Positions 1 to 54,100 of a stretch of 64,000 bases of DNA are shown piece by piece. Origin of the DNA: Hysterangium stoloniferum (lineage: Eukaryota > Basidiomycota > Agaricomycetes > Hysterangiales > Hysterangiaceae). The notes under the pieces were generated by a model. That model was not told where the DNA came from. It saw only the letters and a list, made by a program, of their open reading frames with translations, and made no database searches. The position numbers and the translations under genes were made by a program. The number at the start of each line of letters is the position of its first letter. The first letter of the stretch is position 1. Location: NCBI GenBank assembly GCA_015178975.1, contig WHVD01000127.1, positions 62,001-126,000 on the forward strand. The letters run 5' to 3'.

Positions 1-310
1 TTATGAGAAATTGGTGCACGGACCAAATGTATGGAGAGCAGTGACCACTGTTAACAGAGCGAGCTTGCCTTGTAGCGCTCTGAGGTCGAATCTGGATAAG
101 GGAAGGTAAAAATTCCGCGCTTTAAGGTGGGATGGAAATTAGTGAATGAATAATATGTGACCAGTCTTCACATACATGCAATTGTTGCGCATTGAATGAT
201 CTTGATGTCTTCATGACGCGAAATACTATCAGTACTATACAAAAGATCCACAGTTGACGACAGAGGACGGGTAGATGATCCGGAGGGCTCTCGCATATCG
301 GGGACACTTG

Positions 311-3300
311 CTAGATTACCGCAGTATCGATCAGAATGAGAGGGGGAAAAGGGGGAATGGGAATACTTTGAAGTGGGATTGAAAGCGACCCACGCAGCGT
401 TGGCTGTCCTTTCACCGAAAATCCTACAGCCGCACGTATTTCAGCCCTGACGAGAGGGAGAAACTCCCCTGTGGAGACTTGAGACAGATTCTTCGACAAG
501 ATTTATTGGATCACCTTGTTCTGAAAATTTCGCCAGGGCTGATGCTGCGCTTGATCGAACGTAAGAGTCAGAGTCCTTCAACAGTGCAACCATGTCGGGA
601 ATGACACCCGCAGCGGCCGCTCGAAATTCGGCTGTGGTCAAATGTCAGCTGGATTCCCATCCCATTGTCACACACCGCACCTTGCTCTGAAACCGTCTCC
701 AGGGCCGATACTGCGCTTGATCGAACGTAAAAGTCAGAGTCCTTCAACAGTGCAACAATGTCGGGAATGACACCCGCAATGGCCGCTCGAAATTCGGCTG
801 TGGTCAAATGTCAGCTGGATTCCCATCCCATTGTCACACACCGCACCTTGCTCTGAAACCGTCTCCAGGGCCGATACTGCGCTTGATCGAACGTAAAAGT
901 CAGAGTCCTTCAACAGTGCAACAATGTCGGGAATGACACCCGCAATGGCCGCTCGAAATTCGGCTGTGGTCAAATGTCAGCTGGATTGCCATCCTAATAT
1001 CACACACCGCACCTTGCTTTGAAACCTTCCCCAGGGCCGATACTGCGCTTGATCGAACGTAATACTCAGAGTCCTTCAACAGTGCAACAATGTCGGGAAT
1101 GACACCCGCAATGGCCGCTCGAAATTCGGCTGTGGTCAAATGTCAGCTGGATTGCCATCCTAATATCACACACCGCACCTTGCTTTGAAACCTTCCCCAG
1201 GGCCGATACTGCCCTTGAACGAACGATAAAGCCAGAGTCCTTCAACAGTGCAACAATGTCGGGAATGACATCCGCAATGACTGCTCGAAATTCGGCTGTG
1301 GTCAAATGTCAGTTGGATTCCCATCCCATTGTCACACCGCACCTTGCTCTGAAACCGTCCCCAGGGCCGATACTGCGCTTGATCGAACGGAAGAGTAAGA
1401 GTCCTTCAATAGTGCAACAATGTCGGGAATGACACCCGCAATGGCCGCTCGAAATTCGGCTGTGGTCAAATGTCAGCTGGATTCCCATCCCATGGTCACA
1501 CACCGCACCTTGCTCTGAAACCTTCCCCAGGGCCAATACTGCGCTTGATCGAATGCTCCAGTCAGAGTCCTTCAACTGTGCAACAATGTCGGGAATGACA
1601 CCCCCAATGGCCGTTCGAAATCCGGCTGTGGTCAAATGTCAGCTGGATGCCCATCCCATTGTCACACCGCACCTTGCTCTGAAACCGTCCCCAGGGCCGA
1701 TACTGCGCTTGATCGAACGTCAGAGTCAGAGTCCTTCAACAGTGCAACAATGTCGGGAATGACACCCGCAATGGCCGCTCGAAATTCGGCTGTGGTCAAA
1801 TGTCAGCTGGATTCCCATCCCATGGTCACACACCGCACCTTGCTCTGAAACCTTCCCCAGGGCCCATACTGCGCTTGACCGAACGTGCCAGTCAGAGTCC
1901 TTCAACAGCGCAACAATGTCGGGAATGACACCCGCAATGGCCGCTCGAAATTCGGCTGTGGTCAAATGTCAGCTGGATTCCCATCCCATTGTCACACACC
2001 GCACCTTGCTCCGAAACATTCCCCAGGACCGATACTGCGCCTGTTCGAACTTCAGAGTCAGAGTCCTTCAACAGTGCAACAATGTCGGGAATGACACCCG
2101 CAATGGCGGCTCGAAATTCGACTGTGGTCAAATGTCAGCTGCATTCCCATCCCATTGTCACACACCGCACCTTGCTCTGAAACCTTCCCCAGGACCGATA
2201 CTGCGCTTGATCGAACTTCGGAGTCAGAGTCCTTCAACAGTGCAACAATGTCGGGAATGGCACCGACTATACCAGTTGGGAATCTAGCTGAACACCGGTG
2301 CATATTATATCGTACTCCTCCTCCACTTGGCATTTTCTTACCACATTCCACTAGTAATTCTTCCACAGAACCACCTGCTTTTTTAACCCTTTTCTTCAAC
2401 CACTCCTTTTCTTTTCCTGTTGTGATAATAATTAGGTATGTGCGTTTTGACTCATGGTGTACGCAGTTTACCTGCTATTAAACCATTTTCTTTTAGCACT
2501 TTCCGGCAATCCGCTGCCCATCAATCAGTTTCTCTGCCGGAGCCACGGAAAAAATCCCTACTAAGATGCCAATATGCAAATATTAACCGTTCGCAGGTTA
2601 CACGTAAGCCCTTCTTTTCTGACAGCGCTCCATCAATAGACGCCGTCATCAACGTCCTTCGCTCGTATGGTGCTGCACCCATAGTGGCCACCGTTTCAAT
2701 GTGTGAGTCTGCCGGCACCTCTCGGTTACCGTCATCATCCATGTTTACCCAAATACCAATATGAACGGCCCACCCCAATGTCTTCACGCAACGATCTAAA
2801 TTGTCCAACCGATGTAATGGACTCCCAACATGTAGGAGAGTATTGAAGGGCGTAAGGTACTCTTTGTTCATGAGTTTGTCTGTTGGCGGCGATAGGACTC
2901 GTGACATTGCAAGGAGAGAAACTTCCGCAAGTGCTGCATCACGTATAGTGACAGGACCTGCCGTGAAGTGAAAGCAATTCTCCAAAACTTTGCACAATTT
3001 CTCCGTGACGGCTCGTTGGCACAAGGCAATCCGCAACTGTTCACATTGTTTAGCACCTGCTACAGCCCTAATTGCCTCGTTGACTGCCTCCTCCGATGTG
3101 GAGTTTGCTATCACCCATGCCAGGACATCAGCTTCAAGTTCGGGCCGTGGAGGCTTGCCATGCAATTCGGCGAAGAACCGAGCAAGGCTTTGTAGCCATT
3201 TAGAAATTCTAAATGTATCCGTCCTTGTTGGTGGCGAAGACCCACAATGGTCTGGTGTGGACGAGTCATACTTTGCGCTTGCAGAGACGACTGGGAAAAA

Positions 3301-4221
3301 CCGTGACGCTGTTGTCTGAAAGGGACAAGCGGGGGACAACAAGGGAAAAACCGTGCCAAGTATATATAGAACGATTCCAAATATGGTCAAAAAAAGCATA
3401 AGAACGCCCAACGCTACACTGTTATCCCAGGTAAATAAGACGAGACCTGCAGAGAAAAGGAAGAGAGCTAGTTGAATCAAAAGCGGGATTCCAGTAACAA
3501 CTGATTCGAGGTGCCATTTCTGTGCTCTCTGAACACGAAGGAGACGTTCACATGCATCACTTGAGCGACTTCCGGGGGATACAGGAATATACTTCGCCAG
3601 CCATTCTCTTGCAAGTACAGCACAAAGAGCACTGAAGAGAGTGAGACTGAGACTAATGAACCACAAATAGTTGACAATAAGGGATGATTTGGAGACTTGA
3701 AAAGGCTGAGAGGTAGGTACAGCGAAGTGACTTTGAAGCGCCTGAAGGATTTCCTGAACAGGATCTACCTGCAAACTCTTCCTGCTTTCAATCAGGAAGG
3801 CGGTAAGAATTGCTCCAAACAAACCCGCCTGAAAAGGTGTGAATTAATTGAATATCTATGAAGGAAACCGAATTCTACGCACAAATATTAGAAGCTCGTC
3901 GACACCAACTTGCAATGAGTTGGCAAGCTCTTTGTCCTCTTTCTCCGTTTCCTTCAGATATAATGACCATATGGTTGAATCTGATTCAACGTGCTTGCTA
4001 TAGGGGTTATCGTCCTCGCTTTCTAAGCCATTATGGCCACTGGATGCCGCTTCGGTTGGGCTTGAGGGAACATTGGTAGACGAAGGTTGACGGTTGGCCG
4101 TTCCTTGTTGCTCTGCTTGCGTGCCTCAGTTTAGAATAAGTGTAAACTTTCATTTAATACCTGAGACAAACGGTATCTGTGATTCGGCGTAGCTAAGGTT
4201 TTGCGCATACTGCGAAGCCAT
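311..4221 (-). CDS. DUF6535 membrane protein with C-terminal array of 11 HEAT-like repeats (multi-exon)
   Basis: My spliced model: exons 4221-4161, 4112-3883, 3828-2562, 2513-2472, 2416-2342, then eleven 117-nt exons from 2287 to 515, and a last exon 468-311. Exon lengths sum to 3120 nt, which is 1039 residues plus stop, with every junction in phase. The N-terminus starts MASQYAQN and has a Glu/Asp-rich linker. It then shows the DUF6535 signature (LLIFAGLFGAILTAFLIES) and hydrophobic segments that predict a membrane anchor (NYLWFISLSLTLFSALCAVL, GIPLLIQLALFLFSAGLVLF, and a stretch ending LGTVFPLL). A helical middle region and a Lys/Glu-rich exon lead into the HEAT-like repeats. The open frame stops at 2521, but a 48-nt intron (2561-2514, GTAGGG...GGGCAG with an ACTGAT branch-like site) removes that stop. 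DUF6535 has no established function. A receptor-like role for the variable repeats is inference. Confidence 0.8.
515..2287 (-). repeat. 166-bp exon+intron tandem array, 11 units
   Basis: Eleven units occur at 166-bp spacing; two units are 164 bp because of a 2-bp loss in the intron. Each unit is a 117-nt exon encoding 39 residues (AEFRAAIAGVIPDIVALLKD... ending VSEQ) plus an intron of about 49 nt that begins GTGCGG and ends CCACAG with a GCTGAC branch-like site. All introns are phase 1, so any number of units can be gained or lost without breaking the frame. Intron copies are nearly as similar to each other as exon copies, which indicates recent amplification or homogenisation. Most differences cluster at the two or three codons after LLKDS and next to VRSS. 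Confidence 0.9.
2514..2561 (-). other. 48-nt intron that removes an in-frame TGA
   Basis: The reading frame of the DUF6535 exon meets TGA at 2523-2521. Splicing GTAGGG...GGGCAG joins WHL to DCRKVLKENGLIA and leads into the next small exon and the HEAT exons in frame. The intron has the same length class and branch-site form as the other introns of this gene. RNA evidence would confirm it. Confidence 0.75.
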
Positions 4222-5241: not shown

Positions 5242-5580
5242 GATGAGCTTTATATTTACTCTTCTGCTGGGAAAGAGATCGAACGTCTGGCTGCCGACTT
5301 CGTTGGCACGATTGAAGTCTCAGGTCATAGAGAACGCCCGTGGTTTTTTGCGTCTTTCATGGGTTTCACGACACCAGGAACCAAGTATCAATACGATTTC
5401 AGGAAACCCAACGATGCATGGTCAGTATATAGAACGACGCAGTTCCAAGGATTGGATCTAGACGAATTCATCACAGAACAAGTCTAGATTCTCATTACAT
5501 CTATTTTCAAGTTTTGATTAACCGTATCGTCTAGGTGGTATAATAGCAAAGATGGCATTGGGTGGTTCCTGGGTGTATAG
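5242..5580 (+). pseudogene. Prolyl oligopeptidase gene fragment
   Basis: An open frame at 5242-5487 reads DELYIYSSAGKEIERLAADF, then VGTIEVSGHRERPWFFASF, then an SPG-like segment (TTPGTKYQYDF), then WSVYRTTQFQGL and EFITEQ. This order matches the last blades of the prolyl-oligopeptidase propeller (S9A family). A second piece at 5536-5580 (WYNSKDG) matches the conserved VWYxSKDGT start of the catalytic domain. The piece between them looks like an intron, but it does not restore the frame (about 2 nt lost), and the frame stops shortly after. No upstream propeller and no catalytic Ser/Asp/His region are present, so this is a relic. The family call rests on remembered motifs. Confidence 0.55.
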
Positions 5581-6171
5581 CGGTCAATAATTTGGTCAGT
5601 ATATTCGATCATCAGCCAACTTATCTTCCATTATATCGCAACTCGCCCACACTTGTATTCAATCATCCTCACCGAACATTTCTCTTTCGTCGCCTAAGAC
5701 TCTTTTCCCCACACGTTCACTATCACACCGGCCGGCCACATCAGGTAGTATACGGTTCCCAGGTATAGAGGCCCCAAGACACAATATCTTTCAATGAGTA
5801 ATATAGGCTACTGTCTTATCCGGCGACTGGCTTATCCTGAGGGTGAGATGCCGTCTACTTTGTAGGAGACGCCTGAAGCGCGCTGTTTGTGGGCTGTTTA
5901 GTACCTCATTTACGGATATGGGTTTACGGGTATTATGGCATTCATTTAGATAATCAGGAATACTTGAATCGAAAACAGAAGGGAGTCAGGAGTTGTAGAG
6001 GAATTAGAAAGAACGGGGGAGCGGACAGTGGGGCCGGGAAGTGAGCTGAGAAGACGATCCCAACTTAGTGATGTGACCTGCTTGGCTTCTCTCAGACGAA
6101 TTGCAGATACTAGAGTTTGTACAATTCATATATAGCGAACTTGTGATTTCCGCTCATAGGAAGTACTTCAG
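5581..6171. other. No gene supported
   Basis: Between the oligopeptidase relic and the hydrolase relic I find no sustained coding signal. The sequence just before 6172 could be the intron or flank of the hydrolase fragment. Confidence 0.4.
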
Positions 6172-6234
6172 AAACGGCCTATTATCTTCATTGCACACAG
6201 CCTTGGAGGGATTATTCTCAAACACGTGGGTTAA
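6172..6234 (+). pseudogene. Alpha/beta-hydrolase nucleophile-elbow fragment (plus strand)
   Basis: The plus strand encodes KRPIIFIAHSLGGIILKHV, a textbook GxSxG (GHSLGG-type) lipase/esterase elbow, preceded by a possible acceptor site (ACTTCAG). It ends at 6232-6234 exactly where the N-terminal half of the same kind of domain ends on the other strand. That makes it half of a gene split by a local inversion. It is too short to be functional. Confidence 0.6.
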
Positions 6235-6652
6235 TTTCTGTCATATCTGTCTGGCTGGAATTCAATGTTGACGCCTGTCAGGCTTTGATTCAAGTTCTGC
6301 GTGGATGATGCAGCCGCGCTCTGGGTGTAGGCATCATAACCATACATCAAAATCCTGGTGGCAGGCACATCCTGCGGGAAGAAATCGCGAAGCCAAAGAC
6401 TGCCGTTGTCTGTTGTCCACGATGCTTCACGATGTCCATCCAACCCGTGGACGGCAACGATGCTGTAAAAGACGAGTGAGTCTCGGTGGACAATAGAATT
6501 TGATAGTTGATTACTTACTAGATTATCGGAGAAATACCTGGTGAAAGCTCCCTGATGCCGAAACCCTGAGAGCGGCTTTGTTCTTGGGGGTTGGATTGGA
6601 ATGTATCACGTACTAGTCCGATTGAAGGCGATAAGGAACCGTTAGACCATAA
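6231..6652 (-). pseudogene. N-terminal part of a SesB/DUF676-type serine-hydrolase domain gene (NLR-associated type)
   Basis: Two exons (6652-6519 and 6462-6231) joined over a 56-nt GTAAGT...TTTACAG intron give FGIRELSPG...IIYIVAVHGLDGHREASWT, then LWLRDFFPQDVPATRILMYG. This is the typical opening of fungal alpha/beta hydrolases (VHGLxGH, LWLRDxLP, ARILxYGYDA) often fused to NACHT receptors. The frame ends at 6231 before the GxSxG elbow. The elbow is found next door on the plus strand, so the gene is broken by inversion. A stop just upstream of 6652 means the true N-terminus is missing or lies in another exon. Confidence 0.6.
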
Positions 6653-8428
6653 CTGCTACGGAGGGATCAGAAAAGAACCCAGAGGTTCTGGCTCTTCAGA
6701 GTATAAAATAAAGGGTCGTTTCAGACGATTAAAAGATAGGAATCATTGTTTGGAAATTTTCTCGGAGTGAGGGATGTTGGTATTCACAATGGCGGAGCTT
6801 AGAAGGGGAAACAGTGGCCTAAAGTGCGGTGGAGCCTGAGAACGGCAAGTCACCAGGCTTTTCCCGTGGCCACTTCCCACGCCTATGATTTCCCTTAACC
6901 CCGTCGTTCACCCATTGTACTCAAAGAAAGACCACAGGATTCATCAAGAATGTGTATCTTAGCACAACCACTGCCGCGCATTCCAGGTCTGACCGGATGG
7001 AGCCGTGAAGTCTCGCGGTACGCCCAATCTTTCATTGCAGTTGAACACTACACGTTTCTTTTTAACGTATTACAATTTCCTTTACGTGACGCTCGGAAGA
7101 ACAACGTGTTCCCTTTAACAAAATGCGTACGTTATATTAGCAGATATTGTGGAACTTAATGATCAGCTACTGTTGGCAGCGAGCCAGTAATCTTTGCAAG
7201 TGATTGCCACCAAGTTCCACCTTACAAAATCATTGTTACTTTCGTCTCGTCTTGCTACCTGTCACCCATAGCCGTCAGTTATTCACCGTGCTCTGCTGTG
7301 ATCTCAATGTGGAGTGGTGTGCCTATACAACTTGAGGACCAGTGGCAGAGAGGCCGATATTCTCAGAACGGACCAATACGCAATTGGATTGCTCAATCTC
7401 CCAAGCTTCCACAACCGTCTTTTTTCAAACGCAATGAATTTGTACCTAGATATTAACCGTATCTGCTGAGGATCTAGTTATTCTTCGGAGTTTGGTGTAA
7501 ATCCTGTATCACATGAACACCAAGTCGGCGCCTGATTTGCGGAATATGGATTGTTGTGTTCCGCTCTGCGGTTTGAAGCCAGCTGTTTCTATTTGATCTT
7601 GGAGCAGCTTGATGAGTCAAGGTCGGGCCAGCTAGGTCCACTCAGTTCTGTTCACACTGCAAGCAGAAACAGTGTAAATACTTTGTTTGTGTTTGTTCAC
7701 ATCATAATATTGACACGAGCATGACCCTCTGTACTCAAGCTAACGAGCTTAGACATCCCGCGTCAGCATTCGCTCAGCACATCAGCGTTTGGCCTTTGTA
7801 AAAAATTGATTATTTTGAGGTTCACACTACCCGAAACATACATCATTGCATATTACCTCAGCAACTACTTTCTTTTTAGAAGGTCGGAACTACACCACAC
7901 CACATCAACAAACACGCCACATACATACCATGCAGCACACTGCTCGTCGTCTTGAACAGTGGGTCCGACCACCATCCCCAAACTTATTCGTTATACTTCA
8001 TTCCTTGGTTAATCTCCCCTTCCGCGGACCCTGTGAATGGTCTCGCTCCTCGCCTCCTCGGCCCACACCCCAGTCTTTCGGTCGAAGTTCTTTCTATTTT
8101 TACTTTTTTTCACTAAGACCCACCCCTTTCTTTGCTCATATCGTATCCTATCCGGATGGGTTCTGTCCTAGAGATGCAGGGAATTTTGACCGCAGGGGCC
8201 AGCGGCGGGATCCCTCCATCGCATCAGAATAAACATTCCATGGTCCCAAGAACTAAATGGACGATAGTTTCCATGGCCACTCAAGTTTTCGGTGCACCTA
8301 GCGCCTCGAGAACCTCAAGGTATAACACTCTCGGTTTCAAACTCAGGGGACATTTTATGTGATTGGGTGGGGTCACACCCTTAGTGTTATCCACAATGAC
8401 ATCGACTACATCTCACATAACATTACAG
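6653..8428. other. No gene supported
   Basis: I found no coherent domain or shared repeat here. Small open frames such as 7846-8232 are Pro/Ser/Phe-rich without a recognisable family and look like chance frames. Confidence 0.4.
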
Positions 8429-19892: not shown

Positions 19893-20096
19893 TGGCTAAA
19901 AATAGAATGACAGCTTACCCCAAACATACACTAACTATATACACTACTTTAGAATATTCCTAGTGTTGGATATGGTTGGTTTGACAGCCTAGACTCAGCT
20001 TTAGAGCAGTGCAAATGTGTGACTGTCTCTCACAGTTTCTGTGTATATGGAATGTTAATGGCCATATAGAGTTGACTTCACTACTGAGTACCTAAA

Positions 20097-20168
20097 GGGT
20101 TGGTAGCTCAGTGGTAGAGCATCCAGTCTAGATTACAGATGGTCCCAGGTTCAATTCCTGGCCAGTCC
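20097..20168 (+). pseudogene. tRNA-like sequence (tRNA pseudogene or SINE head)
   Basis: Its 72 nt have tRNA geometry: acceptor GGGTTGG pairs with CCAGTCC (allowing G-U), the D arm is GCTC/GAGC, box A is TAGCTCAGTGG, the T arm CCAGG/CCTGG is perfect, and box B is GGTTCAATTCC. The anticodon stem does not pair (TCCAG against ACAGA) and the loop cannot be placed cleanly. It therefore looks like a relic or the head of a SINE rather than a working tRNA gene. It lies among transposons. Confidence 0.55.
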
Positions 20169-20330
20169 AATATTTTCCAATACCTAGAGGGTGGAATAGC
20201 TCTCTAAAAAACATGAGAAAATTACAGGAGACAATATAAAATAACCTCTAAGGGTTGGCCAGTATAGACATGATATAAACTAGAGTGAAGAAATAGAATG
20301 TCCCCTTACATCACCCCCTCCTCTAAGGCC

Positions 20331-20790
20331 TGTTGCCTTGACATGCCCAATGCAGTGAATATTTCAACAAAATAGTAAGGCCTCAAATTGCACTGCCTTA
20401 CTACAATGTGGGGCCCCTGGGGTTTCCTGATAAAACTTGGCAATCAGATCTGGGGCATTGACATCCTTCTCTGAGACCCATTTATTATGCTCATATCCAT
20501 AGTTGATCAGGAATTGGAGTCAATTCTGAAATCACCTACTATTGAGGATCTTCTCAACATGATATTCCTCTTCACCTTCCACCAGTATTGGCTTTGGTGC
20601 AGGTGGATGGGGGATGGCACCCTGGGAATGGGTCTTCTGATGCTGTGGTCAATTTAACCACATTAAACACTGGGTGAAGATGATGCAAGGAATTGGGGAG
20701 TCTTAGACAATAGGCATTGTGACCCACTGTGGCCTGTATGGTAAAGGGGCCCAAATTGCAGTGAGAGAGTTTGACTAATGGCCTAGTGGT
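20331..20790 (-). pseudogene. Ty3/Gypsy pol C-terminal fragment with chromodomain
   Basis: The minus strand reads GPFTIQATVGHNAYCLRLPN, SLHHLHPVFNVVKL, and after a stop YEHNKWVSEKDVNAPDLIAK followed by FYQETPGAP. These are the end of a Ty3 integrase and a chromodomain (LPxxLxxxHPVFNVxxL). It diverges from the intact chromovirus at 36.8 kb, so it belongs to a different, older lineage. Stops interrupt it. Confidence 0.65.
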
Positions 20791-20794
20791 TCTG

Positions 20795-21330
20795 TGTTAA
20801 GTGCCATGTCAGGAACCTATTCCAAGACTAATGGAAATGACTGGGAACTCAGGAACTTCCAGATAGGGTCAGGATGTTGGCTTCAGCTTATGTGCTGCAC
20901 CCCTATGCAAACACTTGGAATGACCTTAATTTCAGGGACAGGATTTACATTGGAAGATTATGGATATTCAGAGTTCTGAAGAGTTCCAAATATTGAGCAT
21001 ACAGAAAGAAGGAAGGAATAAGAAACTAAGTCGATATCAGATTTAAGGTAAAGTACAAATTCATGGAAACTAATGTAAGTTCCCTCATTATTGTACTACA
21101 AACTAAGATCACAATAAGGCAGATTAGGAAAGTATTTCTGAAATGGGAATACAACAACCAAATGAATGAATACTTGTTAGAAGTTACCAAATGTGGAACA
21201 AGGATTGGGATCAGAAGTATGGGAACTGGAAATGTTCCATGGATGGAAGTTGGGTCAGAAGTTATGGATAATATTGGAAGATTGAAGTATCTGGGAATGG
21301 ATCATAACAGTACCCCCCTGTTAGGCTGAA
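20795..21330 (+). repeat. Old LTR related to the intact chromovirus LTR
   Basis: It begins TGTTAAGTGCCATG and shares the block GGxTTGGCTTCAGCTTATGxGCTGC with the young LTRs at 34874 and 41865 in the same orientation. CpG sites of the young LTR appear as TpG or CpA. The right end is not clear. A partial second copy lies at 24568-24668. Its position just left of the antisense-gene relic mirrors the layout of the intact element. Confidence 0.55.
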
Positions 21331-21430
21331 CTCTCATAGAGGCAATTATGTACTGAGCATTGAACTGTCAGTCATCCATTATGTGTCATGAAAAAATGCA
21401 TGTTTGGCAGTGGAGAGTTTCAGCTGCTGA

Positions 21431-21528
21431 AAGTTGTGGTTAAAGAAAGAAAAATTGTTAATTGAATATTGGAGTATAAAAACTTCCAAATATTCAATTA
21501 ACAATTTTTCTTTCTTTAACCACAACTT
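21431..21528. repeat. Perfect 40-bp inverted repeat around a TATA box
   Basis: Arms AAGTTGTGGTTAAAGAAAGA... (21431-21470) and its exact complement (21489-21528) flank an 18-nt loop containing TATAAAA. The hairpin stands about 60 bp upstream of the coiled-coil relic at 21586. In the intact element the equivalent place holds a plain TATA box without such arms. Confidence 0.85.
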
Positions 21529-21585
21529 GTATGTTCATTCATTGACCTTTATTTACCACCACTCCAGAAAATTCAAAAGCTGAAA

Positions 21586-22200
21586 TTGCCAAAACTGCTG
21601 AAATGTCAAAAGTCAAGGAACTTCAATGCAAATGAACAGAAGATGGAGGAGGTAAGGCAGCAACAAGAGGAGGAGGAGAAGGCTTTGATGTGTGAGTTGA
21701 AGGAGGCAGAAGAAGCAGAAAAGTATGAGTTGGAGTGGATTAAGGTGGAGAAAGAGAAGGAGGAACAGAGATGGGAATGCTTTCAGAGAATAGTGGAGGA
21801 TCAGAGGTTGTGGGATAAAGTGGAGAAAAAACAGGAGGATGCCAAGGTGGAAGAGCAGAGGTTAAAAGAGAAGTGGGATGGAAAGGTGAGTGAACCAGAA
21901 AGTGTTCCATGTGTCTCCAGTAATGGAAAGCAACAGCAGAAAGCTAATGAACTAGATGAAGAGGAAGAGGCTGGGCCTTCAAGTCCAAAGGTAAGTGGTT
22001 TTGAAAAGTTCCAGAATATGGCTAATATCCAAAACAGAAACAAAAGACCAGGGCTCTGGAACATATGGAAACTGCCCATGAAGTTCCCTGTCAGTGATGG
22101 AGATCCAGGGCATTACTGGTTGGAGGCAGAAGGTAAAATGAGGCAGAACTTATTTCCTGTGTGCTGTTGTGAGAGGTATGGCGAAATATGCTCGGGAAAT
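21586..22200 (+). pseudogene. Relic of the retrotransposon antisense coiled-coil / Zn-cluster gene
   Basis: A Glu/Lys/Gln-rich coiled coil (EVRQQQEEEEKALMCELKEA and onward) is followed by an acidic block ending EEEEAGPSSPK. Then comes an intron-like GTAAGT...AACAG and KQKTRALEHM. The spliced gene inside the intact chromovirus has the same plan: coiled coil, acidic block ending GPSSPK, then an intron and KQKQAP. Downstream frames (VSDGDPG) are shifted and the six-cysteine motif is lost. The Tc1 element inserted at 22269. Confidence 0.6.
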
Positions 22201-22270
22201 ATAGTCTGGATAAGCCCATATTATATTCCCATTATTATTTCTTCTTTCTCTCTATTCTATTATACACTTA

Positions 22271-23860
22271 CAGTAGGCAACAAAACCCTTACAATGTTTT
22301 GCACTTTTTGAAAGACATGGCTATTCCTCCAGAAATAAATTCTGTAAATTGCTGAAAATATTATGTAATATAATTCAACATCATACCTTCCAGAAATGCA
22401 CAGCCACAAGGCACCATGTCCTTATTTGGTAAGTCCACATCACACACAAACCAATAGCTCATTGTAAGGGTTTTGTTGCTCACTATTTTGAGACTATTAT
22501 TACAAGAAATTAGTATTCAGTATGGCCCCCCTTTGCTCTAATCACTGCTGCAAGTCTTCTAGGCATACTCTCAATAAGCTTCTGACACTCCTCCTTTGGA
22601 ATCTCTTCCCACATCTTCTGCACCCTCTCCCACAGTTCATGTTCATGAACACTATTTGCAGGCTGTTCATACTCCCCCAGCTTCATTTTGACATGATTCC
22701 ACAGATGTTCAATAGGATTCATGTCAGGAGATTGTGCAGGCCACTTGAGGACTGTAACATCATGGTCAGTGAACCATTTCTGGGCCTTTTTGCCGGTGTG
22801 TTTGGGGTCATTGTCTTGTTGAAACACAATGTCAGCCACTGTTTTGTTGAAATATTTAAGGGTTTGCTGGAGTTCATCATCCAGGATCTCCACATAAAGC
22901 TCAGGATCCATCCTCCCATCAATTTTGGTTGCAAACCCAACCCCATCCCAGCCCATGCATCCCCACATCATCAGGTTTCCTCCTCTAAACTTGACTGTTC
23001 CCTCTACTAACCTATCATTTAACCCCTCACCCACATTTCCTTCCATCTGATCCCAGCCTATTAATCTTAGTCTCATCAGACCATATGACCCTCTTCCAGT
23101 CCTCCAGGGTCCATTCCAAATGCCTTTCTGCAAACTCCAATCGAGATTTCCGATGATGAGGTTTGAGAAGTGGCCTTTTTCTCTTTACCACAGCCCTCAT
23201 GCCTATGGTTTTGAGGTGGTGACACACTGTTTGTGAAGTAATAGGAGTGTTGATGATGTCTATAAGTTTCTTGGTTGCCTGTGTGGCATTATCAACCTTC
23301 CCCATGCAAATTATTCTTCTAGCATAGGCAATATGGGCTGTGGTAAGCTTTATAGGATGGCCACCAGAGCATTTGGGGAGGTCAGGGTGATGCTCAGAGT
23401 GAATATGACTGATGGTGGCACTGCTGAGATGAGTTTGGTAACATATTTGAGCTCCAGAAATGTCAGAGTCAAGTAGAGTAAGAACATGTTGGATTTGGCT
23501 GGAGGAGAGCTTTATCATTGTGAGTAGGGTGATTGTGGGATTCCAACTGGTTGCTTTCATCTTATATACATTGAGGAGGAGTGATCACATGACTTTGTTG
23601 AACTTTATAAACAAAGTCATGTGACTAGGACCCATCTTGAACTTTAAAAATGTGTGCAACAAAACCCTTACAATGAGCTATTGGGTTGTGTGTGATGTGG
23701 ACTTACCAAATAAGGATGTGGTGCCTTGTGTGCATTTCTGGAAGGTATGATGTTGAAGTATATTACATAATATTTCCGGCATTTTACAGAATTTATTTCT
23801 GGAGGAATAGCCATGTCTTTCAAAAAGTACAAAACATTGTAAGGGTTTTGTTGCCTATTG
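22271..23860 (-). mobile_element. Tc1/mariner element 1, TA target duplication, ~205-bp palindromic terminal repeats
   Basis: The outer ends CA(G/A)TAGGCAACAAAACCC are inverted repeats flanked by TA (22269-22270 and 23861-23862). Similarity between the ends runs about 205 bp, and each arm closes with an inverted copy of the outer motif (CATTGTAAGGGTTTTGTTGC at about 22460, its complement at about 23657). Each arm is thus a palindrome-ended unit. The transposase lies between them on the minus strand. Confidence 0.85.
22510..23560 (-). pseudogene. Tc1-family transposase, frameshifted
   Basis: The N-terminal frame (23560-23027) has helix-turn-helix regions and the first catalytic Asp in VIWSDETKINRLGSDGRKC. 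The second frame continues EGLNDRLVEGTVKF, MWGCMGWDGVG, the second Asp (VFQQDNDPKHT) and the Glu (SPDMNPIEHLW), giving the DD34E pattern. The junction after GRK has lost a few bases, so the frame is broken. All three catalytic residues are still encoded, which points to fairly recent inactivation. It acts by cut-and-paste at TA sites. Confidence 0.8.
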
Positions 23861-36841: not shown

Positions 36842-39800
36842 TTATAAGGAATTGAGAGGACCGGGTTTGTTCGGATAAGCTTGGTGAAACCCTAAAACGA
36901 TTTCCGAGGCATTACCGAGCTCTGTAGCTAGGATCCATGAAGTTTCTTCATCTGTACCTTCATAGCCAGCCCATTTGACCAAATAAAGTAATTTGCATGA
37001 GCGTCGGCGATTGTCGATTTTTGAGTCTAGGATTTCTGATATCTCGAATTCGGGTTCCCCATCAATAATCACGGGTGGAGGTGGTGGCTGTATGCGATCC
37101 GGTATATTGTTAGGAACACAAGGTTCTAACATAGATACATGAAATACCGGGTGCACTGCACGCATGTTGTCGGGGAGCCGAAGCGTCCATGAAAGTGTGC
37201 CGGCTTGTGCTATAACTTCGAAAGGACCTAAATATTTTTCAGAGAGCTTCTTAGAAGGTCTAGTAGTTCGGAAAAACTCGGCTTTAACGAATACTCGGTC
37301 TCCGATCTTGAAATCAGGAGGTGGAAGTCGGTTTTTATCCGCAGACCGTTGGTATCGTTCTTGAGCCATTGCGATAGTTTTACGAAGTTCTTGATGTAGC
37401 TCGTCGAGGTTTGTAACAAAGTCTTGAGCACGGGCGGATGCGAGATCGCGTTCCGGGTGGATTGCGATGTTGGGGTTGTAGCCTTTATTTGCGAAGAAAG
37501 GCGAAATGCCAGTAGTGGCATTCGGTGCGTTGTTGTATGCGAATTCGGCCAGCGGCAGTAGTGATTTCCAATTGTCTTGTTGATAGTTGCAATAGACACG
37601 GATGTATTGCTCCAAGGTTTGATTCATGCGTTCGGTTTGTCCATCGCCTTCCGGGTGATAGCCCGAAGTGAAGTGTAACTTCATGTCTAGTGCTTTTCCG
37701 AGTGACCTAAAGAAGTGAGAGACAAACTCGGAGCCGCGATCGGATGTGACATGCGACGGAACGCCATGCTTGGAAAATACGTGGGTAACGAATAATTCAG
37801 CTAACTGTACAGATGTTATCGTGTCATATGTTGGAATGAAAATACTTTGCTTTGAGAGCCGATCCACAACAACTAGGATTGCTGTGTGACCTTCGGATGC
37901 TGGCAGGTGCTCGATAAAATCCATAGAAATCGAGTTCCAGGGTTTTTCCGGTATCGGTAATTGTTTGAGTAGGCCATATGGTTTGTGTCGCTGTGATTTA
38001 GAGCGTAAACACGTAGTACAGGATTTACAATAGTGCTTAACAAAATCTCGGATGCCGGGCCATGTATATTCTCTTCTAATGAGTGAGAGGGTCTTATTGA
38101 GGCCGAAATGTCCTGAGATTGGGTGGTCGTGCTTATGTTGTAGGATTCGCAGCCGAAGGGTGTCGGAATCCGGTACATAAATGCGATTGTCAAGTCGAAT
38201 GAAACCTTGTGAGTCTAATGACCATCGGGGTTGATCGGGGTCGGACGGGTTATCGAGGTGTGCTTTGGTGACTGGGTCTAATGGAATTGCCGATAGTATG
38301 TCTTGATGTAACTTTTCGGTATCCATAAGGATAACACTTCGCAAGACTGGATGAATGAGGTAAGTGGCTCGGATAGATGCGGACAGTTGTTCCGATGAAA
38401 ACATAGGTTTGAAATTATGCGGGTTAACTGTGGCGTAGTCGCTACTCCCCTCTTTAGGATAGACATCCCATCGTCTAGTCATAGCGTCGGGTTTTCCACC
38501 AAGGCGGCCGGGACGGAAGCGGATTACCATGTTGAAAGCGGAGAGGTATTCGGACCATCGAGCTTGTCGACGGGTGAGAAGTTTTGTGGTTGAAAAGTAA
38601 ACTAAATTTTTGTGGTCTGTAATAACATCTACCGGGTGGGCCGAGCCCTCCAAATAATGTCGCCATGTCTTGAAAGCTTCAAATATTGCGAGTAATTCCT
38701 TATCGTGAACGTCGTAGTTGAGTTCGGGCGCCGAAAATGTGCGAGACAGAAAAGCTACTGGGTGTACTTCACCATCGGTGTCCAGAATGGACAATATCGC
38801 GGCAAGCGCATAGTCCGAAGCATCAGTTTCCACGATGAGTTGAACGTCGGGTTTCCAGTGCGACAAGATAGGGGCGGATGTAAACGCACTTTTCAATTCC
38901 TGGAATGCCGATCGGCATTCTTCGGAGAAATTCCACGGGGTGTCTTTGCGAGTAAGACGAGTGAGCGGAACGGTAATTTTTGAGTAATTGTGAATGAAAC
39001 GGCGATAAAAATTGGCGAAGCCTAAAAAGGATTGAATATCTTTAACCTTTCGGGGTTCCGGCCAATCTTGAATGACTTGAATTTTAGCGTCGTCCATGCG
39101 GAGACCATCGGGTCCCATCATGAAGCCTAAGTATTCAACCGTGTCGACATCAAAAGAACATTTTTTACCATTCGCAAAAAGACCATGTTTTCGGAGTCTT
39201 CGGAGGACTTCACGGACGTGTTCATCATGAAGTGTAGGGTCTTCGGAGAAGATGAGGATGTCGTCTAGGTACACAATGACAAAGACGTCAAGGAGGTCGG
39301 AAAAGACGTCGTTGATAAAACGTTGAAAGACCGACGGAGCGTTGGTGAGGCTGAAAGGCATTACTAACCATTCAAAGGAGCCATAGCGAGTGCGAAAAGC
39401 CGTTTTCCATTCGTCACCTTCGGCGATCCGAACCAAATGATAGGCGTGTTTGAGATCTATCTTTGTATAAATTCGGGCCTTTCGAGGGGCGTCGAGTAAA
39501 TCGGAGATTAGTGGTAATGGGTACTTGTCTTTTCGAGTAATCGCGTTTAGTCCTCGAAAGTCAACGCAAAGTCGAAGGGAACCGTCTTTTTTCCGAACGA
39601 ATAGGACAGGGGCTCCATAGGGAGACTTTGAGGGTCGGATAAAACCTATAGCCAAGTGTTCATCCAAGAAATCTCGGATAGCCGATAGTTCGGACTGCGA
39701 GAGAGGATAAACCGGACCTAGGGGCGGATGTGAACCATCTTCAATATCAATTTTCAAATCGTAAGGCCTGTGAGGGGCGAGTCGATCGGCTTTTTGTTTA

Positions 39801-40654
39801 CTGAAGACATCTGCGAATTCATGGTATTTTTTAGGAACACCTTCTAAATCTGCGATCGGTTCGGTCACCGGGGATGCGAAGCGACCGGTGACTTCGTCAA
39901 CTTTAAGATTGACTGTAAATGCTCGGGAGCCGTCCAGCTTGATGGCTCTCATAAAAGCTGCGGCGTTTATTAGAGAGACAGGCGGCGGAGAGCTCGGATT
40001 TGCCACGGGGGCTGGAGGTGCTGTAGAGGCCATATTTGCCGAAACAGGCGGAAACGGAACAGTCGTATCGGGTGCCGACGGGGTTCGGAAATGGATACTG
40101 CCCAATACCCAATCAATCAACGGATTATAGCGGGTGAGCCAGTTATGTCCTAGAACCACGGAGCAGCTCGAGTCCAACTGTGTTACAAAAAACGTAACTG
40201 TCTGAAAGGTTCCACACGGGAACCGAAGTCGGAGTTCGCAGGCTTGCGAGATTACGGAGTTTGAGGTACCATCAAAAAGTCGGAGCGGAATCGGATCTAT
40301 TGCATAGGTTTTCAACTGATTTTTTCTGGAAAAACTTGTATCTATAAAACAATGGGTTGAACCTGAATCTATGAGAGCTCGAAAAGTGAAACTCCCGAGA
40401 GGTTCCGAAGTAAGATTTATGAACAAAGAATTAGGATCATACAATGCGGATGCGTTAAGATGACAATTTTCCGGTGTGCGAGGAGATTCAACGCAACTCT
40501 CCAACCGCACGGAATCCAGAGAGTTGCTTAATCTTTTTTCGACTCGGCAGCCGGCTTGGCCGGTTGTGAGGTCGTGGCCGTATTGGCCGATCGGGCTTTT
40601 GTGGCTTTTGGGCATGCAGCGACTCGGTGTCCGGGATCTGCACACAACAAACAA
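36842..40654 (-). CDS. pol: Chromovirus pol: protease, reverse transcriptase, RNase H, integrase, chromodomain
   Basis: An open frame of about 1270 codons. Order: protease (FRALIDSGSTHCFID, active DSG), reverse transcriptase ([42 protein letters not shown]), RNase H (VETDASDYALAAIL, DKELLAIFEAF, ITDHKNL), integrase with HHCC zinc finger (HPISGHFGLNKTL ... CKSCTTCLRSK) and DDE core (SMDFIEHLPAS, VTSDRGSEFVSHFF, GQTERMNQTLEQ). The C-terminus is a chromodomain (EFEISEILDSK ... LYLVKWAGYEGTDEETSW). It overlaps gag by about 127 nt in the -1 frame, so it is probably made by -1 frameshifting. The first listed codon is not a convincing ATG. Confidence 0.93.
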   Translation of the reverse strand: MFVVCRSRTPSRCMPKSHKSPIGQYGHDLTTGQAGCRVEKRLSNSLDSVRLESCVESPRTPENCHLNASALYDPNSLFINLTSEPLGSFTFRALIDSGSTHCFIDTSFSRKNQLKTYAIDPIPLRLFDGTSNSVISQACELRLRFPCGTFQTVTFFVTQLDSSCSVVLGHNWLTRYNPLIDWVLGSIHFRTPSAPDTTVPFPPVSANMASTAPPAPVANPSSPPPVSLINAAAFMRAIKLDGSRAFTVNLKVDEVTGRFASPVTEPIADLEGVPKKYHEFADVFSKQKADRLAPHRPYDLKIDIEDGSHPPLGPVYPLSQSELSAIRDFLDEHLAIGFIRPSKSPYGAPVLFVRKKDGSLRLCVDFRGLNAITRKDKYPLPLISDLLDAPRKARIYTKIDLKHAYHLVRIAEGDEWKTAFRTRYGSFEWLVMPFSLTNAPSVFQRFINDVFSDLLDVFVIVYLDDILIFSEDPTLHDEHVREVLRRLRKHGLFANGKKCSFDVDTVEYLGFMMGPDGLRMDDAKIQVIQDWPEPRKVKDIQSFLGFANFYRRFIHNYSKITVPLTRLTRKDTPWNFSEECRSAFQELKSAFTSAPILSHWKPDVQLIVETDASDYALAAILSILDTDGEVHPVAFLSRTFSAPELNYDVHDKELLAIFEAFKTWRHYLEGSAHPVDVITDHKNLVYFSTTKLLTRRQARWSEYLSAFNMVIRFRPGRLGGKPDAMTRRWDVYPKEGSSDYATVNPHNFKPMFSSEQLSASIRATYLIHPVLRSVILMDTEKLHQDILSAIPLDPVTKAHLDNPSDPDQPRWSLDSQGFIRLDNRIYVPDSDTLRLRILQHKHDHPISGHFGLNKTLSLIRREYTWPGIRDFVKHYCKSCTTCLRSKSQRHKPYGLLKQLPIPEKPWNSISMDFIEHLPASEGHTAILVVVDRLSKQSIFIPTYDTITSVQLAELFVTHVFSKHGVPSHVTSDRGSEFVSHFFRSLGKALDMKLHFTSGYHPEGDGQTERMNQTLEQYIRVYCNYQQDNWKSLLPLAEFAYNNAPNATTGISPFFANKGYNPNIAIHPERDLASARAQDFVTNLDELHQELRKTIAMAQERYQRSADKNRLPPPDFKIGDRVFVKAEFFRTTRPSKKLSEKYLGPFEVIAQAGTLSWTLRLPDNMRAVHPVFHVSMLEPCVPNNIPDRIQPPPPPVIIDGEPEFEISEILDSKIDNRRRSCKLLYLVKWAGYEGTDEETSWILATELGNASEIVLGFHQAYPNKPGPLNSL

Positions 40655-41826
40655 AGGTTGTTGTCCATTCGGCGTTGCTTTTCCTGTGGTAGGAGCTTGC
40701 CATCGGAGCCGAGTTTGCCAGTTAGGTCGGGTTTGTCTTTGTCTTGAGACTTATTCGACTGTTTGCCCTTGCCTTTTTTGTCGTTAGACCCTTTGTTTTC
40801 GGACTTCTTATCGGAAGTCGAGTTGCCAGTTATATTGGTGTTTTGGTTACCAGACTTATTGGCATTTTTGTTGTCCGATGATTTTTTGTCCGACGGGTTT
40901 TCGCGACTGATTTCCGAACGTCGTTCCCAGTATCGAGCGTCTGCGTTTTGGGCTTTCAGGCGCATGAGAGGGAGGGTTTTCGGCTTGCCGGTCTCTCCTT
41001 TGGAGACTTCGTCTTTGAGGCGAGACGGAAGGCCGGAGTAAAACTGGTAACGGAGGGCCGAATCGCCCCAGTCGCAACGCGCGGCGAGGTTGTTGAACTG
41101 GACGATATAATCGGTGATGCGCTGAGTGTCTTTCATTTTGAGATTAGAAAGCGCGGTTTCGGCATCGCCGGTTTGGTCGTAGGGGCCGAAGTTGGTTTCG
41201 AGTTCCTCGACAAAGGCATCCCAATCGTGGAGCCAATCGGGGTCTTCAGAGGTGAGGCCAGAAAATGCGGGTTCAAACCAGGCTGCTGCGGAATCCTTAA
41301 GGTATGAGAGTGCGAAGTTTACCTTTCGGTCATCCGTTGCGAATGCAGCCGGGCGGTCCCGAAAGTTGAATCGACATTGCATAAGGAATGTCGGCAATTT
41401 CTTCGGGTTTGAGCCAGTAAATGGCTCGGGTTTGTTGACTCGGGTTTGCCCAGGTTCCTTTTCCTTGATATTGCTTTTAAGGAATTCATTAAGGGATCCT
41501 AGTGTACCTGAAAACAATTCCCATGTTTCTTCAGGGTCGAGAGCCGGTTTCTTCTTTGCAGACTTCTTGGAGCCACTAGCCTGAGGTTGGTCGCCATCCT
41601 CGGGTTCGTGTTCCGAAACTGGTTGATTGTTAATCTCCTCAGTTGCTTCGGGATCGGTTGCTTCAGTTACTTCTTCAGCATCGCCGGTAATCTCCACAAA
41701 GCGAGATTCTTCGGAGGTTTCTGGTAGCGGAGTTTTCTGAGTAGCTCGGGCTGTATACAGAAAAGGAGACTTGAGAGTGGAAGATTCTGCTTCGCCGCTA
41801 GGCTTGGCATTTTTCCTCGGAGGCAT
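40528..41826 (-). CDS. gag: Chromovirus gag, 432 residues
   Basis: ATG at 41826, 38 nt after the 5' LTR. It has an acidic N-terminal region, a capsid-type domain (PEPFTGSNPKKLPTFLMQCR, DWDAFVEELETNF, RITDYIVQFNNLAARCDWGD), a Lys/Ser/Asn-rich linker, and a CCHC zinc knuckle CLLCADPGHRVAAC (C-x2-C-x4-H-x4-C) near residue 400. It forms the particle that packages the RNA. The frame is intact. Confidence 0.92.
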   Translation of the reverse strand: MPPRKNAKPSGEAESSTLKSPFLYTARATQKTPLPETSEESRFVEITGDAEEVTEATDPEATEEINNQPVSEHEPEDGDQPQASGSKKSAKKKPALDPEETWELFSGTLGSLNEFLKSNIKEKEPGQTRVNKPEPFTGSNPKKLPTFLMQCRFNFRDRPAAFATDDRKVNFALSYLKDSAAAWFEPAFSGLTSEDPDWLHDWDAFVEELETNFGPYDQTGDAETALSNLKMKDTQRITDYIVQFNNLAARCDWGDSALRYQFYSGLPSRLKDEVSKGETGKPKTLPLMRLKAQNADARYWERRSEISRENPSDKKSSDNKNANKSGNQNTNITGNSTSDKKSENKGSNDKKGKGKQSNKSQDKDKPDLTGKLGSDGKLLPQEKQRRMDNNLCLLCADPGHRVAACPKATKARSANTATTSQPAKPAAESKKD

Positions 41827-41851
41827 GTTTAGACGGAAAATGCGAGTGTGA

Positions 41852-41862
41852 AATCAGAATAT
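41852..41862 (-). promoter_or_regulatory. Putative self-priming primer-binding site
   Basis: Two bases after the 5' LTR the minus strand reads ATATTCTGATT. There is no TGG tRNA-type site. These 11 nt are exactly complementary to AATCAGAATAT in the same strand of the LTR (42167-42157), which lies about 30 nt downstream of a TATATGAA box, where the transcript should begin. Tf1/sushi elements prime reverse transcription this way with an 11-nt match. Confidence 0.65.
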
Positions 41863-51199: not shown

Positions 51200-54100
51200 T
51201 TAACTTCCCCTAGTCAAGAACCCAATATCCCGCCAATGCGTAATCCAGGCTACTGCGTCTCTTCCAGAAATTTGCGGCAAAGATTTATCTGACAATGTCG
51301 AAGAAGCCAACAGCGCTTCCGTGAGATCGAGATAAGGAATACCGAGTGATTCCTTATTCTCAATAGGTAAGGGTGTTGCCTGCTGGAAAAAACCCAGCAG
51401 ATGAAGGGCAGGATTCTCGTCGATTCTTCCATTGTCAAGCCTCTTCACCCATTCATCCCAGGGTATTAAAGGGATGTGCAACTTCTCGGAGAAAATGGAG
51501 AACACGCTCATCCAGGGCACAGGATTTGGATGGACTAGGTGGAGATACTGGGAGTGGCTAGTCCGAAATTCAAACATAGCTCTTGCCACGATCTCCGTGG
51601 AGACCCATGCAATTGACTACAGCTTTTCTGAGCCAATAATATGCGACAGTGTGAAGCGACTCACATCATCTCTAAATGGAAGAGCACCTATAAGTTGTCC
51701 TGAACGTAGCATGGCTGGTAACCAATCTGTCGAGTTCCATGCACCACTAGAATTGCTGGTCATCTGACCGATTCTTACGATAATGGGTTTTAACGCGGTA
51801 CGCTTGGCAGCTTCCTCCAAAATGCGCTCTTTGATAAAATATCAAGGGATGTTCGATCTATTGATACAGAAGGGCTAACCGGCGATCCATTTTGATTCAC
51901 TATATCCGCTGCCTGCAACTATGTTGAAATCTTTGATAGGCTCTTCTTTTGGCCGTTCATTCATCTTCCAATCTAGGAAAAAAAGGTTACATAAAATTTC
52001 ATATCCTTGATATTTATTTTGAGGACTTCACTTTTATATACACCCACAGAACTTGAAAAAATAAAGCGAGGAGGTGCTGAAAGAGGGGACTGGAGCGCAA
52101 TATCCACCAGTTTTCTCACTCCTTGAAGCAGAGGAATGTATGAATTCAAGCCCAGATTGAAGTTGACCTTCCAAGCTATGGTTTATTAGCAAAGCTTATT
52201 GAAAAGTAATGAATAATATTTATATTACCGGTATGGATGATTAAAGTGACATTGTCACGAATCTGTAGCCCTCTGAGATTACCGGCACACCGGAGAGAGC
52301 GAATCACGGACCTCTTCAAAAATGTGTCTGCCCAAACCCAACTCCTCAAGAGTAGTATCTCCTTCCAGAAGTGTCACTTTGTCCGACTCTACAACGGCAG
52401 GTGGCAGACCACGCCTTGACAATGCATCGGCTTGCCTTCTATGCAACGATATCCTGGCGTCGGACTTCCTATTCAATGCATAAATATGATTTACTTCGAG
52501 AGATGACACCAGATTAGCTAGAAGCTGCGATCCCAACGCGCCGGTTGTACCCGTAAGTAGCACGATCACTCTCGACTTGGTTGAAACAAGTCGTGGGGAA
52601 GGCTGATGAGTAGGGAATGTGGAAGTTAGATTGGTTATAATCCTTTGTACACCATCGACGTTGGAGAGCTTTGGGATATTGGGACGGCTGATCGTAGAAT
52701 TCATGAGGGAGATAGTTGCATTCGTCAGAGTAGTAACGGTGGGGTTAGAGTATACGATGTCTTGTGGCATCGGAGCGCTAATCATTTGCTTCTCCTGCAC
52801 AATGGTCTGAATGAGAGTGTTTCTGATATATGCTGCTTGGAGGCTATGCCAACCACAATAAATTCGAATAAAGGGAAAGGAATACATATCGTATCTACGC
52901 ACCTATCTCCCCCATTTTCGAAGATATCGTCGTCGTCGTTTATTGGTGTACTTCGTGCCATAACAGCATGAACTACGCTCCGAACTAATATAATGATTTG
53001 ATGAGGCGACCAGGTCGAAGGCACGCATATACTGTATTTAGATATGCTGGCAGCGATATAAGCGGCACTTATTTCATTCTTGTATGTCGTCAGTATGACC
53101 GATCTACGTGGCGTTAGTTTCGTAGTCACTTCTAATGGCCGTTCTGGATGAGAGACGATTATCATCTGTAAAAACACTGAATAATTGGTTATGGTATGGT
53201 GAAAGAATGTTAGCACTTCTTTGAATATTTTGGAATGGCTCGGCGACAACGCATTAGCCTCCTCTACGCTTGGCCTAGCAAACTATGCATCGGGAACGGA
53301 AAATCTATTTCTTTGTAACTTACCAGATGGCGTTTCTATAGTTCTCAAGTGCCACGACATCTTGCAGCGGGACTTGGTGCCCTCTAGTAGGTTGCACTAG
53401 GACGCCGATGTGAGACTTGCCATGACCGATTACCATGGCAATTTCAACAAGTGGATTCCTGCATATAATGGTTTCTAAGGGTATGAAATCAGTACACTGT
53501 TATACGAAATATTTACTTCTAAGTATACCAATAGGAACAGGATTTGCCTTAGTAATATTGATTGAATGTACCAGTAAATCATACTGACAATAAACTGGCT
53601 TTGATGACTTACCTTTTCACCAGTAGACAGTATTATCTGATCGTCTTTGCGTCCATATACTTTGAACTTGGCCGGATTATTTGGATGTCTCAAGACCAGA
53701 TCCTTCGTTGCGAACGCACGCTTGCCGTCCAATGTGAAATTAAAGGATGCAGGACTGTGAGTAGAGCTTTCCTACGCAAGATAGTCATTCGAATTAAGAT
53801 ACGATGACAATTGTGACAACCCACAACAAATACCAGTTCAAATACATCTGGGATATCGTCTTGTGGTATGAATCTGGGATCGCATTGCGGATTTATAGTG
53901 AGCCAGTCCCACTCGTCATATCCGGTAGGCTCTGTGGTGCACTATGTTAGAGAGTTTCTTATGCGAAAGCAGTCCATTACCTAAGTTAATCTGACCAACA
54001 GGCCCTGCCTCGGTACTGCATGATCAATACAACCCATCATTTACAAACTAGATGAACATACGTCCCATATAACCCAACAAGTGTGACACCGTTTCGAGAT

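Follow-up and report, generated by a model that had tools for sequence, protein, structure and literature searches.

The described systems closest to the gene analysed here are the NACHT-WD40 genes hnwd (het-d/e/r) of Podospora anserina and other internally conserved fungal NOD-like receptors (NLRs). In the portions of the literature cited here, these receptors carry near-identical tandem units, evolve in concert, change in repeat number and form multigene families, with four diversifying codons per unit in the WD40 arrays (PMC1805685, PMC2873952, PMC4986451, PMC12222747). The same traits have been identified in a gene at one end of a 64,000-nucleotide stretch of Hysterangium stoloniferum DNA (the window, C32:62001-126000; the genome searched comprises 111 Mb in 554 contigs), which encodes a DUF6535 domain followed by two arrays of HEAT units, and in which two codons per unit, 23 and 24, diversify strongly. 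Genes of this kind may encode membrane-anchored recognition receptors lacking a nucleotide-binding oligomerization domain (NOD), diversified by unit exchange and by selection on contact residues; the probability of this reading is put at about one half.

Unlike hnwd and the NLRs, the gene has a DUF6535 membrane anchor instead of NACHT or NB-ARC, a HEAT fold, two arrays around a spacer and one exon per repeat (a layout not mentioned for hnwd/NLRs in the cited portions), and its recognition function is putative. Neither NACHT nor NB-ARC is matched in the N-terminus, spacer or C-terminus (Pfam at E ≤ 1; NB-ARC was not searched genome-wide), and of 38 NACHT matches none has an array within 12 kb on its own strand, among the HEAT matches listed. 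Neighbourhood counts, here and below, use a thinned subset of the 150 listed HEAT matches and all 344 scanned units, the NACHT count additionally a few rows of the Pfam HEAT search. The sole NACHT match within 12 kb of an array on either strand, among the matches listed, lies at C24:621283-624274, on the opposite strand and about 3 kb from a DUF6535 gene. Of the features that define an NLR or STAND (signal transduction ATPase with numerous domains) receptor, C-terminal superstructure-forming repeats with high internal conservation are present (88% mean column identity for 10 of the 11 array 1 units), and that identity was rejected for want of a nucleotide-binding domain in the Pfam and NACHT-neighbourhood searches. 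The likeness to fungal NLR arrays proposed in an earlier note on this DNA is therefore retained as an analogy of internal repeat conservation, as far as PMC4986451 and PMC1805685 are cited for it, and not as family membership.

Other systems share single elements. The fungal N-NACHT/HEAT NLRs also have C-terminal HEAT repeats, but on N-NACHT, in the part of PMC12258605 cited. NACHT-ankyrin genes of a fungus are likewise reported to use exon structure for receptor diversity, although through mini exons and not through whole-repeat symmetric exons. The designed HEAT-like alphaRep binders have the DxD-xx-VR-xx-A motif in common with the window protein, and their randomised positions overlap its natural hypervariable ones; they differ in being artificial, with shorter units and no membrane anchor, according to the cited part of PMC3754942. 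A search by title and abstract start, in non-subscription literature, found no description of DUF6535 with HEAT arrays or of this exon layout. The only paper found on DUF6535 names it, in the part cited, in one row of an expression table (PMC12387923).

Architecture of the gene and its family

The gene model lies on the minus strand and comprises 36 predicted exons encoding 1833 amino acids and 27 HEAT units without an internal stop. From the N-terminus, which contains DUF6535, the protein runs through the 11 units of array 1, a spacer of 102 residues and the 16 units of array 2, of which the final one is a cap, to a C-terminal tail. Array 1 consists of 11 tandem 39-residue units (window 2287-515), exactly as first described; Tandem Repeats Finder gives a period of 166, 10.6 copies and 92% matches, and the HEAT identity follows from PF02985 (E 4.7e-19 over three stretches, with a typed consensus trimer as query). 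The proposal of one phase-1 117-nt exon per repeat holds for units 2-11, which are separated by introns of 47 or 49 nt, and fails for unit 1, which shares a 246-nt exon with the linker. Several other parts of the initial description had to be replaced. A gene end at position 311 was rejected because the paralogues have a common intron there and continue; the span 311..4221 is too short, the gene running on through three spacer exons into a second array outside the window. The supposed C-terminus after unit 11 (514-469) is a predicted intron, and instead of some 13 introns the model has 17 wholly in the window and 35 in the gene. Array 2 was located by hidden Markov model (HMM) scans at C32:61975-59379, beyond the left edge of the window, and the stop codon, counted from model exon lengths, ends at about C32:58970. 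The inter-array stretch, aligned across 15 loci, is a conserved spacer with introns.

The DUF6535 membrane domain claimed earlier is confirmed: on the spliced N-terminus, residues 69-231 match positions 1-176 of the 177 of PF20153 (E 1.6e-45), with four predicted hydrophobic membrane segments. The score rises from 119.5 bits on exon 3 alone to 155.6 bits after splicing, which supports the junction of exons 2 and 3. A fifth hydrophobic window, in array 2, is barely over the threshold. Likeness of the membrane part to HlyIII was rejected, with E values of 0.023-0.033 under the cut-off.

What had been taken for a single locus is a multigene family with two arrays per gene. The genome holds 75 DUF6535 matches, collapsed to 68 loci. 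At 39 of these a HEAT unit follows on the same strand, no more than 12 kb downstream, whereas an upstream control gives 3 of 68; two further loci, C475 and C224, come by reading from the Pfam HEAT search, so that at least 41 of 68 have an array. Gene models were tried for four paralogues and obtained for three: one with 25 units and 1755 amino acids, open to the stop with all introns GT-AG; one with 26 units and 1794 amino acids, also open to the stop, with two modelled introns not GT-AG; and one with 27 units, open to the end of the sequence examined, with one modelled intron not GT-AG. These open frames with different unit counts bear out the claim that repeat number can change without damage to the frame.

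The arrays C17, C129, C140 and C1:1.87M have no DUF6535 match nearby and no similarity to the window protein N-terminus in about 1 kb of upstream DNA. Stops occur in C17, C129 and C140, in the first unit of C1:4146901 and in one unit each of C200 and C157. Two pairs of similar HEAT arrays (L014/L016 and L013/L018), one pair near-identical and some units stop-bearing, have no DUF6535 match nearby; they are possibly remnants or alternate copies. The best-scoring DUF6535 locus (L001, C441:1294290) has much of the domain within a 653-residue open frame and no HEAT unit downstream among the matches listed.

Variable codons, selection and turnover of units

The residues after LLKDS in units 1-11 read SE, SE, WH, SD, WS, SS (preceded by Y), FI, YY, FY, FY and SY, all eleven pairs as originally listed. 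The wider claim of a conserved backbone with hypervariable sites stands over 298 of the 344 scanned units (units bearing a stop, not of 39 residues or with an HMM score below 60 were dropped): entropy peaks at position 24 (2.70 bits) and 23 (2.27), followed by 35, 28, 22 and 36. At codon 24 the nucleotide diversity of the three positions is 0.65, 0.50 and 0.16, compared with averages of 0.17 (fourfold sites) and 0.15 (intron sites outside the splice signals). Diversity at the first two bases of codons 23-24 exceeds that of fourfold and intron sites in all 15 array pieces; pieces with fewer than eight kept units are omitted from the per-array tables. The ratio of nonsynonymous differences per site (pN) at codons 23-24 to synonymous differences per site (pS) at the other codons is 2.85 (bootstrap 2.41-3.38, genes weighted equally); it ranges from 1.42 to 4.70 and exceeds 1 in all 15 pieces (14 genes), whereas the other codons give 0.86. 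Pooling by class yields 0.37 (core), 2.90 (codons 23-24) and 1.07 (all remaining codons). For exon 3, which holds the remainder of DUF6535 and its linker, the median ratio of nonsynonymous to synonymous rates (dN/dS) is 0.38 (21 pairs of 7 genes). Purifying selection acts on both the DUF6535 domain (0.38) and the repeat core (0.37).

In a one-unit structure model (predicted local distance difference test, pLDDT, 88), helices span residues 2-19 and 23-38, so residues 23-24 start the second helix; by helix spacing, residues 28, 31 and 35 would follow on the same side. The top seven sequence matches among solved structures are alphaRep binders (an E4-NB2 fusion being counted by name). The alphaRep positions 18, 19, 22, 23, 26 and 30, randomised according to the part of PMC3754942 cited, correspond here to 23, 24, 27, 28, 31 and 35, an offset of 5 obtained from the alignment and 20 copied segments. 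Mean entropy at these six positions is 1.61 compared with 0.86 elsewhere in the family (permutation p 0.002), and 1.58 compared with 0.70 in the window gene (p 0.0002). In one alphaRep complex described in that source, 19 of 19 interface residues of A3 are at randomised positions. A Foldseek search with the 39-residue unit gave one uninformative match (E 6.3). The expectation that the variable residues line one face is in keeping with their overlap with the alphaRep binding face.

Concerted evolution and changes of repeat number are both seen between gene copies. The window gene has two identical neighbouring units, 9 and 10 (166 nt, unit plus intron), and one C377 unit is present four times in identical form. 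Among 252 internal units the nearest neighbour lies in the same gene at a frequency of 0.44, compared with 0.08 expected, whereas matching by position is found for the first unit (7/7), the first unit of array 2 (11/11) and the cap (6/6). Internal units are homogenised within genes and terminal units keep their position. Close copies illustrate the arrays' faster change: C2:1474k and C200 are 1.4% apart over the N-terminal 1.9 kb, but matched units differ by 8.8% and 11.2%, with differences at 34 of 46 codons 23-24 and at 199 of 851 codons elsewhere. For the window gene and C2:1404k the N-terminal distance is 2.7% and matched units differ by 9.2% and 7.2% (28 of 48 codons 23-24, 173 of 888 others). 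Two pairs of damaged copies, which are weak controls, give 0 of 22 codons 23-24 and 8 of 407 others (C17/C129), and 5 of 16 and 50 of 296 (C1:1.87M/C140).

All 35 introns of the window-gene model are GT-AG. An intron-size gap follows 297 of the 344 units (280 GT-AG, 8 GC-AG and 9 neither), and a branch-like motif is present in 291 of these gaps, under a loose pattern of seven motifs in the last 30 nt. In the 201 of the 297 gaps that are 49 nt long, to which the test was confined, diversity at six splice-signal sites is 0.013 compared with 0.147 in the rest of the intron. The array introns of the window gene are 49 nt (18) or 47 nt (7) long, and the array exons are constantly 117 nt; 2-nt changes are therefore tolerated in introns while exons keep their length. 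In the spacer, by eye, gaps of 6 and 9 nt fall within proposed exons of several paralogues and gaps of 1 and 8 nt within proposed introns, and a 10-nt exon gap occurs in C1:1.87M, a damaged copy. A spacer frameshift was rejected, as the 1-nt indel falls in a predicted intron of 83 nt. The in-frame TGA preceding exon 4, present in four of seven aligned paralogues, was likewise dropped as a pseudogene sign, since it lies in a predicted 48-nt intron that has a branch-like site. From these signals the array introns look real. Their shortness, together with DUF6535, suggests a basidiomycete source. Exon 3 is open in 7 of 7 genes. None of the 27 window-gene units bears a stop, compared with 7.0 expected under simulated neutral change, and 12 of 14 array pieces tested have no stop units; C200 and C157 have one each, and the deficit in C157 is not significant (1 compared with 3.3 expected). 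The coding constraint on the window-gene array is real.

Feature map and surroundings

The flank at window 5300-8300 is 97% identical to C2:1400438-1403433 over 3 kb and 89-93% identical to three further DUF6535-HEAT neighbourhoods, having been duplicated together with the gene. Window 10000-13000 matches C2 at 95-97% in two pieces about 4.5 kb apart, window 20000-23000 has no match to that part of C2 among the best 40 of 4368 candidates, and window 52000-55000 is a single-copy stretch. The 1.2 kb compared on the 3' side resemble the C2 copy at 94.6% over 738 columns. The C2 copies are treated as presumed paralogues; they may also be a partly rearranged second haplotype. Open frames of Ty3/gypsy-type and Copia-type retrotransposons were recognised by Pfam at window 36845-41853 and 60575-64000, and the repeat at 22269-23000 occurs in at least 39 other places at 96-97% identity (best 40 of 4368 candidates).

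Table 1. Predicted features of the DUF6535-HEAT gene, in window positions
Feature	Position	Strand	Basis
Exon 1, predicted start codon (ATG opening the frame) at 4221	4161..4221	-	gene model, paralogue alignment
Exon 2, DUF6535 start	3883..4112	-	gene model, paralogue alignment, DUF6535 score gain
Exon 3, remainder of DUF6535 with four hydrophobic segments, plus linker	2562..3828	-	gene model, dN/dS
DUF6535 (PF20153) six-frame match, split by intron 2	3427..3969 (C32:65427-65969)	-	E 5.0e-42
Exon 4, preceded by predicted 48-nt intron	2472..2513	-	gene model, paralogue alignment
Exon 5, linker and HEAT unit 1 (2171-2287)	2171..2416	-	gene model
Exon 6, HEAT unit 2	2005..2121	-	gene model
Exon 7, HEAT unit 3	1839..1955	-	gene model
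Exon 8, HEAT unit 4	1673..1789	-	gene model
Exon 9, HEAT unit 5	1509..1625	-	gene model
Exon 10, HEAT unit 6	1343..1459	-	gene model
Exon 11, HEAT unit 7	1179..1295	-	gene model
Exon 12, HEAT unit 8	1013..1129	-	gene model
Exon 13, HEAT unit 9	847..963	-	gene model
Exon 14, HEAT unit 10	681..797	-	gene model
Exon 15, HEAT unit 11, end of array 1	515..631	-	gene model
Predicted 46-nt intron (GTGATC...CACAG)	469..514	-	spacer alignment, gene model
Exon 16, spacer	394..468	-	spacer alignment, gene model
Exon 17, spacer	176..310	-	spacer alignment, gene model
Exon 18, spacer, last exon inside window	24..119	-	gene model; gene continues left of C32:62001
Codons 23-24, unit 3 (WH)	1885..1890	-	unit coordinates, checked by eye
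Codons 23-24, units 1, 2, 4, 5	2217-2222, 2051-2056, 1719-1724, 1555-1560	-	unit coordinates
Codons 23-24, units 6-11	1389-1394, 1225-1230, 1059-1064, 893-898, 727-732, 561-566	-	unit coordinates

A candidate recognition role and its alternatives

At the level of the DNA, the anchor, the two arrays, the exchange of units, the conserved frame and the fast codons 23-24 are established. By analogy, the architecture would work like fungal NLR repeat arrays, yet it is not an NLR. The window gene would belong to a large family of membrane-anchored recognition proteins in fungi. In its product, DUF6535 with its four predicted segments precedes two HEAT arrays, with the conserved spacer between them and a cap unit and tail at the end. 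Internal units, each a symmetric (phase 1-1) exon of its own, are duplicated, lost and exchanged within genes, a layout in which unequal exchange can alter unit number without breaking the frame; the anchor and repeat core are conserved, and codons 23-24 diversify faster than synonymous and intron sites. The arrays may fold into a curved solenoid that displays the variable residues on its inner face and binds a variable protein partner there, each gene having its own specificity, and match or mismatch may be signalled at the membrane through the DUF6535/linker part. The most likely purpose would be to recognise non-self, whether other individuals (somatic incompatibility) or other organisms.

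Several observations weigh against such a role. The array variation seen is between gene copies of one genome and not between known alleles, and no array was found at 27 of the 68 DUF6535 loci, among the matches listed. No output domain besides DUF6535 was recognised in the window protein, and the single-sequence structure model of exon 3 is poor (pLDDT 47). The N-terminus is acidic (5 K/R, 16 D/E), unlike a simple positive-inside topology, and the topology is therefore uncertain; the few NxS/T sites (four in 1833 residues) and the lack of a signal peptide visible by eye, no predictor having been run, would suit cytosolic arrays. Of the alphaRep-equivalent positions, 27 (0.46 bits) and 31 (0.95) show no marked variability across the family, and bA3-2, the partner of A3 in the alphaRep complex, has only 11 of its 22 interface residues at randomised sites, according to the cited part of PMC3754942. 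The whole-array dN/dS by tree-based count is near 1 (0.97 and 1.05). The local ratio of nonsynonymous to synonymous changes (N:S) at codon 23 lacks significance on either tree (p 0.15 and 0.26). Codon 24 reaches nominal significance on the all-site tree (p 0.006) and passes correction once the variable codons are left out of the tree (p 6e-7). The corrected test is also passed by codon 15 on the all-site tree and by codon 36 on both trees. Local pS at codons 23-24 is high, 0.32 compared with 0.42 for pN, a local ratio of only about 1.3. Analysed per repeat position, as the earlier note had proposed, selection thus appears in the ratio of 2.85 across all pieces, but not as a local excess at codon 23, and at codon 24 on one of two trees after correction.

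Within the recognition reading, receptors for other organisms (a plant partner, bacteria or viruses), working by the same mechanism, form a possible though tentative branch; both roles are discussed for internally conserved fungal repeat receptors in the cited part of PMC4986451, and the present evidence favours neither. More doubtful is a membrane-anchored scaffold family with many endogenous partners, for example in trafficking or cell-surface organisation, whose between-gene diversity would reflect subfunctionalisation. HEAT arrays are typically protein-binding scaffolds, and the many paralogues would suit this, but units within one gene differ most at codons 23-24, and close paralogues have rearranged arrays, a turnover above that expected for a fixed endogenous partner. 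The near-unity whole-array dN/dS, the missing local excess at codon 23 and the exchange evident in units 9 and 10 and in the repeated C377 units would all agree with passive concerted evolution, in which exchange homogenises the backbone and exposed residues vary unconstrained, with no need of recognition. This is unlikely, since lack of constraint would give equal pN and pS, whereas pN exceeds pS at codons 23-24 in 15 of 15 pieces, and their first two bases exceed fourfold and intron diversity in every piece. That the family is a decaying, transposon-rich set of duplicates without function is highly improbable: the stop-bearing copies, the segmentally duplicated flanks and the retrotransposons in the window would be expected of it, but the missing stops in the window gene and in 12 of 14 array pieces, the open exon 3 with its low dN/dS and the conserved splice signals speak against pseudogenes.

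Because internal units are phase 1-1 exons with near-interchangeable splice sites, skipping of different units could also give many receptors per gene, although this is very unlikely. If true, a fungus would have a recognition repertoire made by combinatorial splicing, beyond germline exchange and independent of NLRs. A large and fast-diversifying repeat family, anchored in the membrane and lacking a nucleotide-binding switch, would give the NLR-like strategy a second architecture. The natural variable residues can be compared with a designed binder scaffold, and the exon-per-repeat layout offers a clean test of the effect of gene structure on repeat turnover. Somatic recognition in basidiomycetes is poorly understood, the models coming from ascomycetes, as stated in the cited part of PMC8229728, and the DUF6535-HEAT family provides a concrete set of candidates for it.

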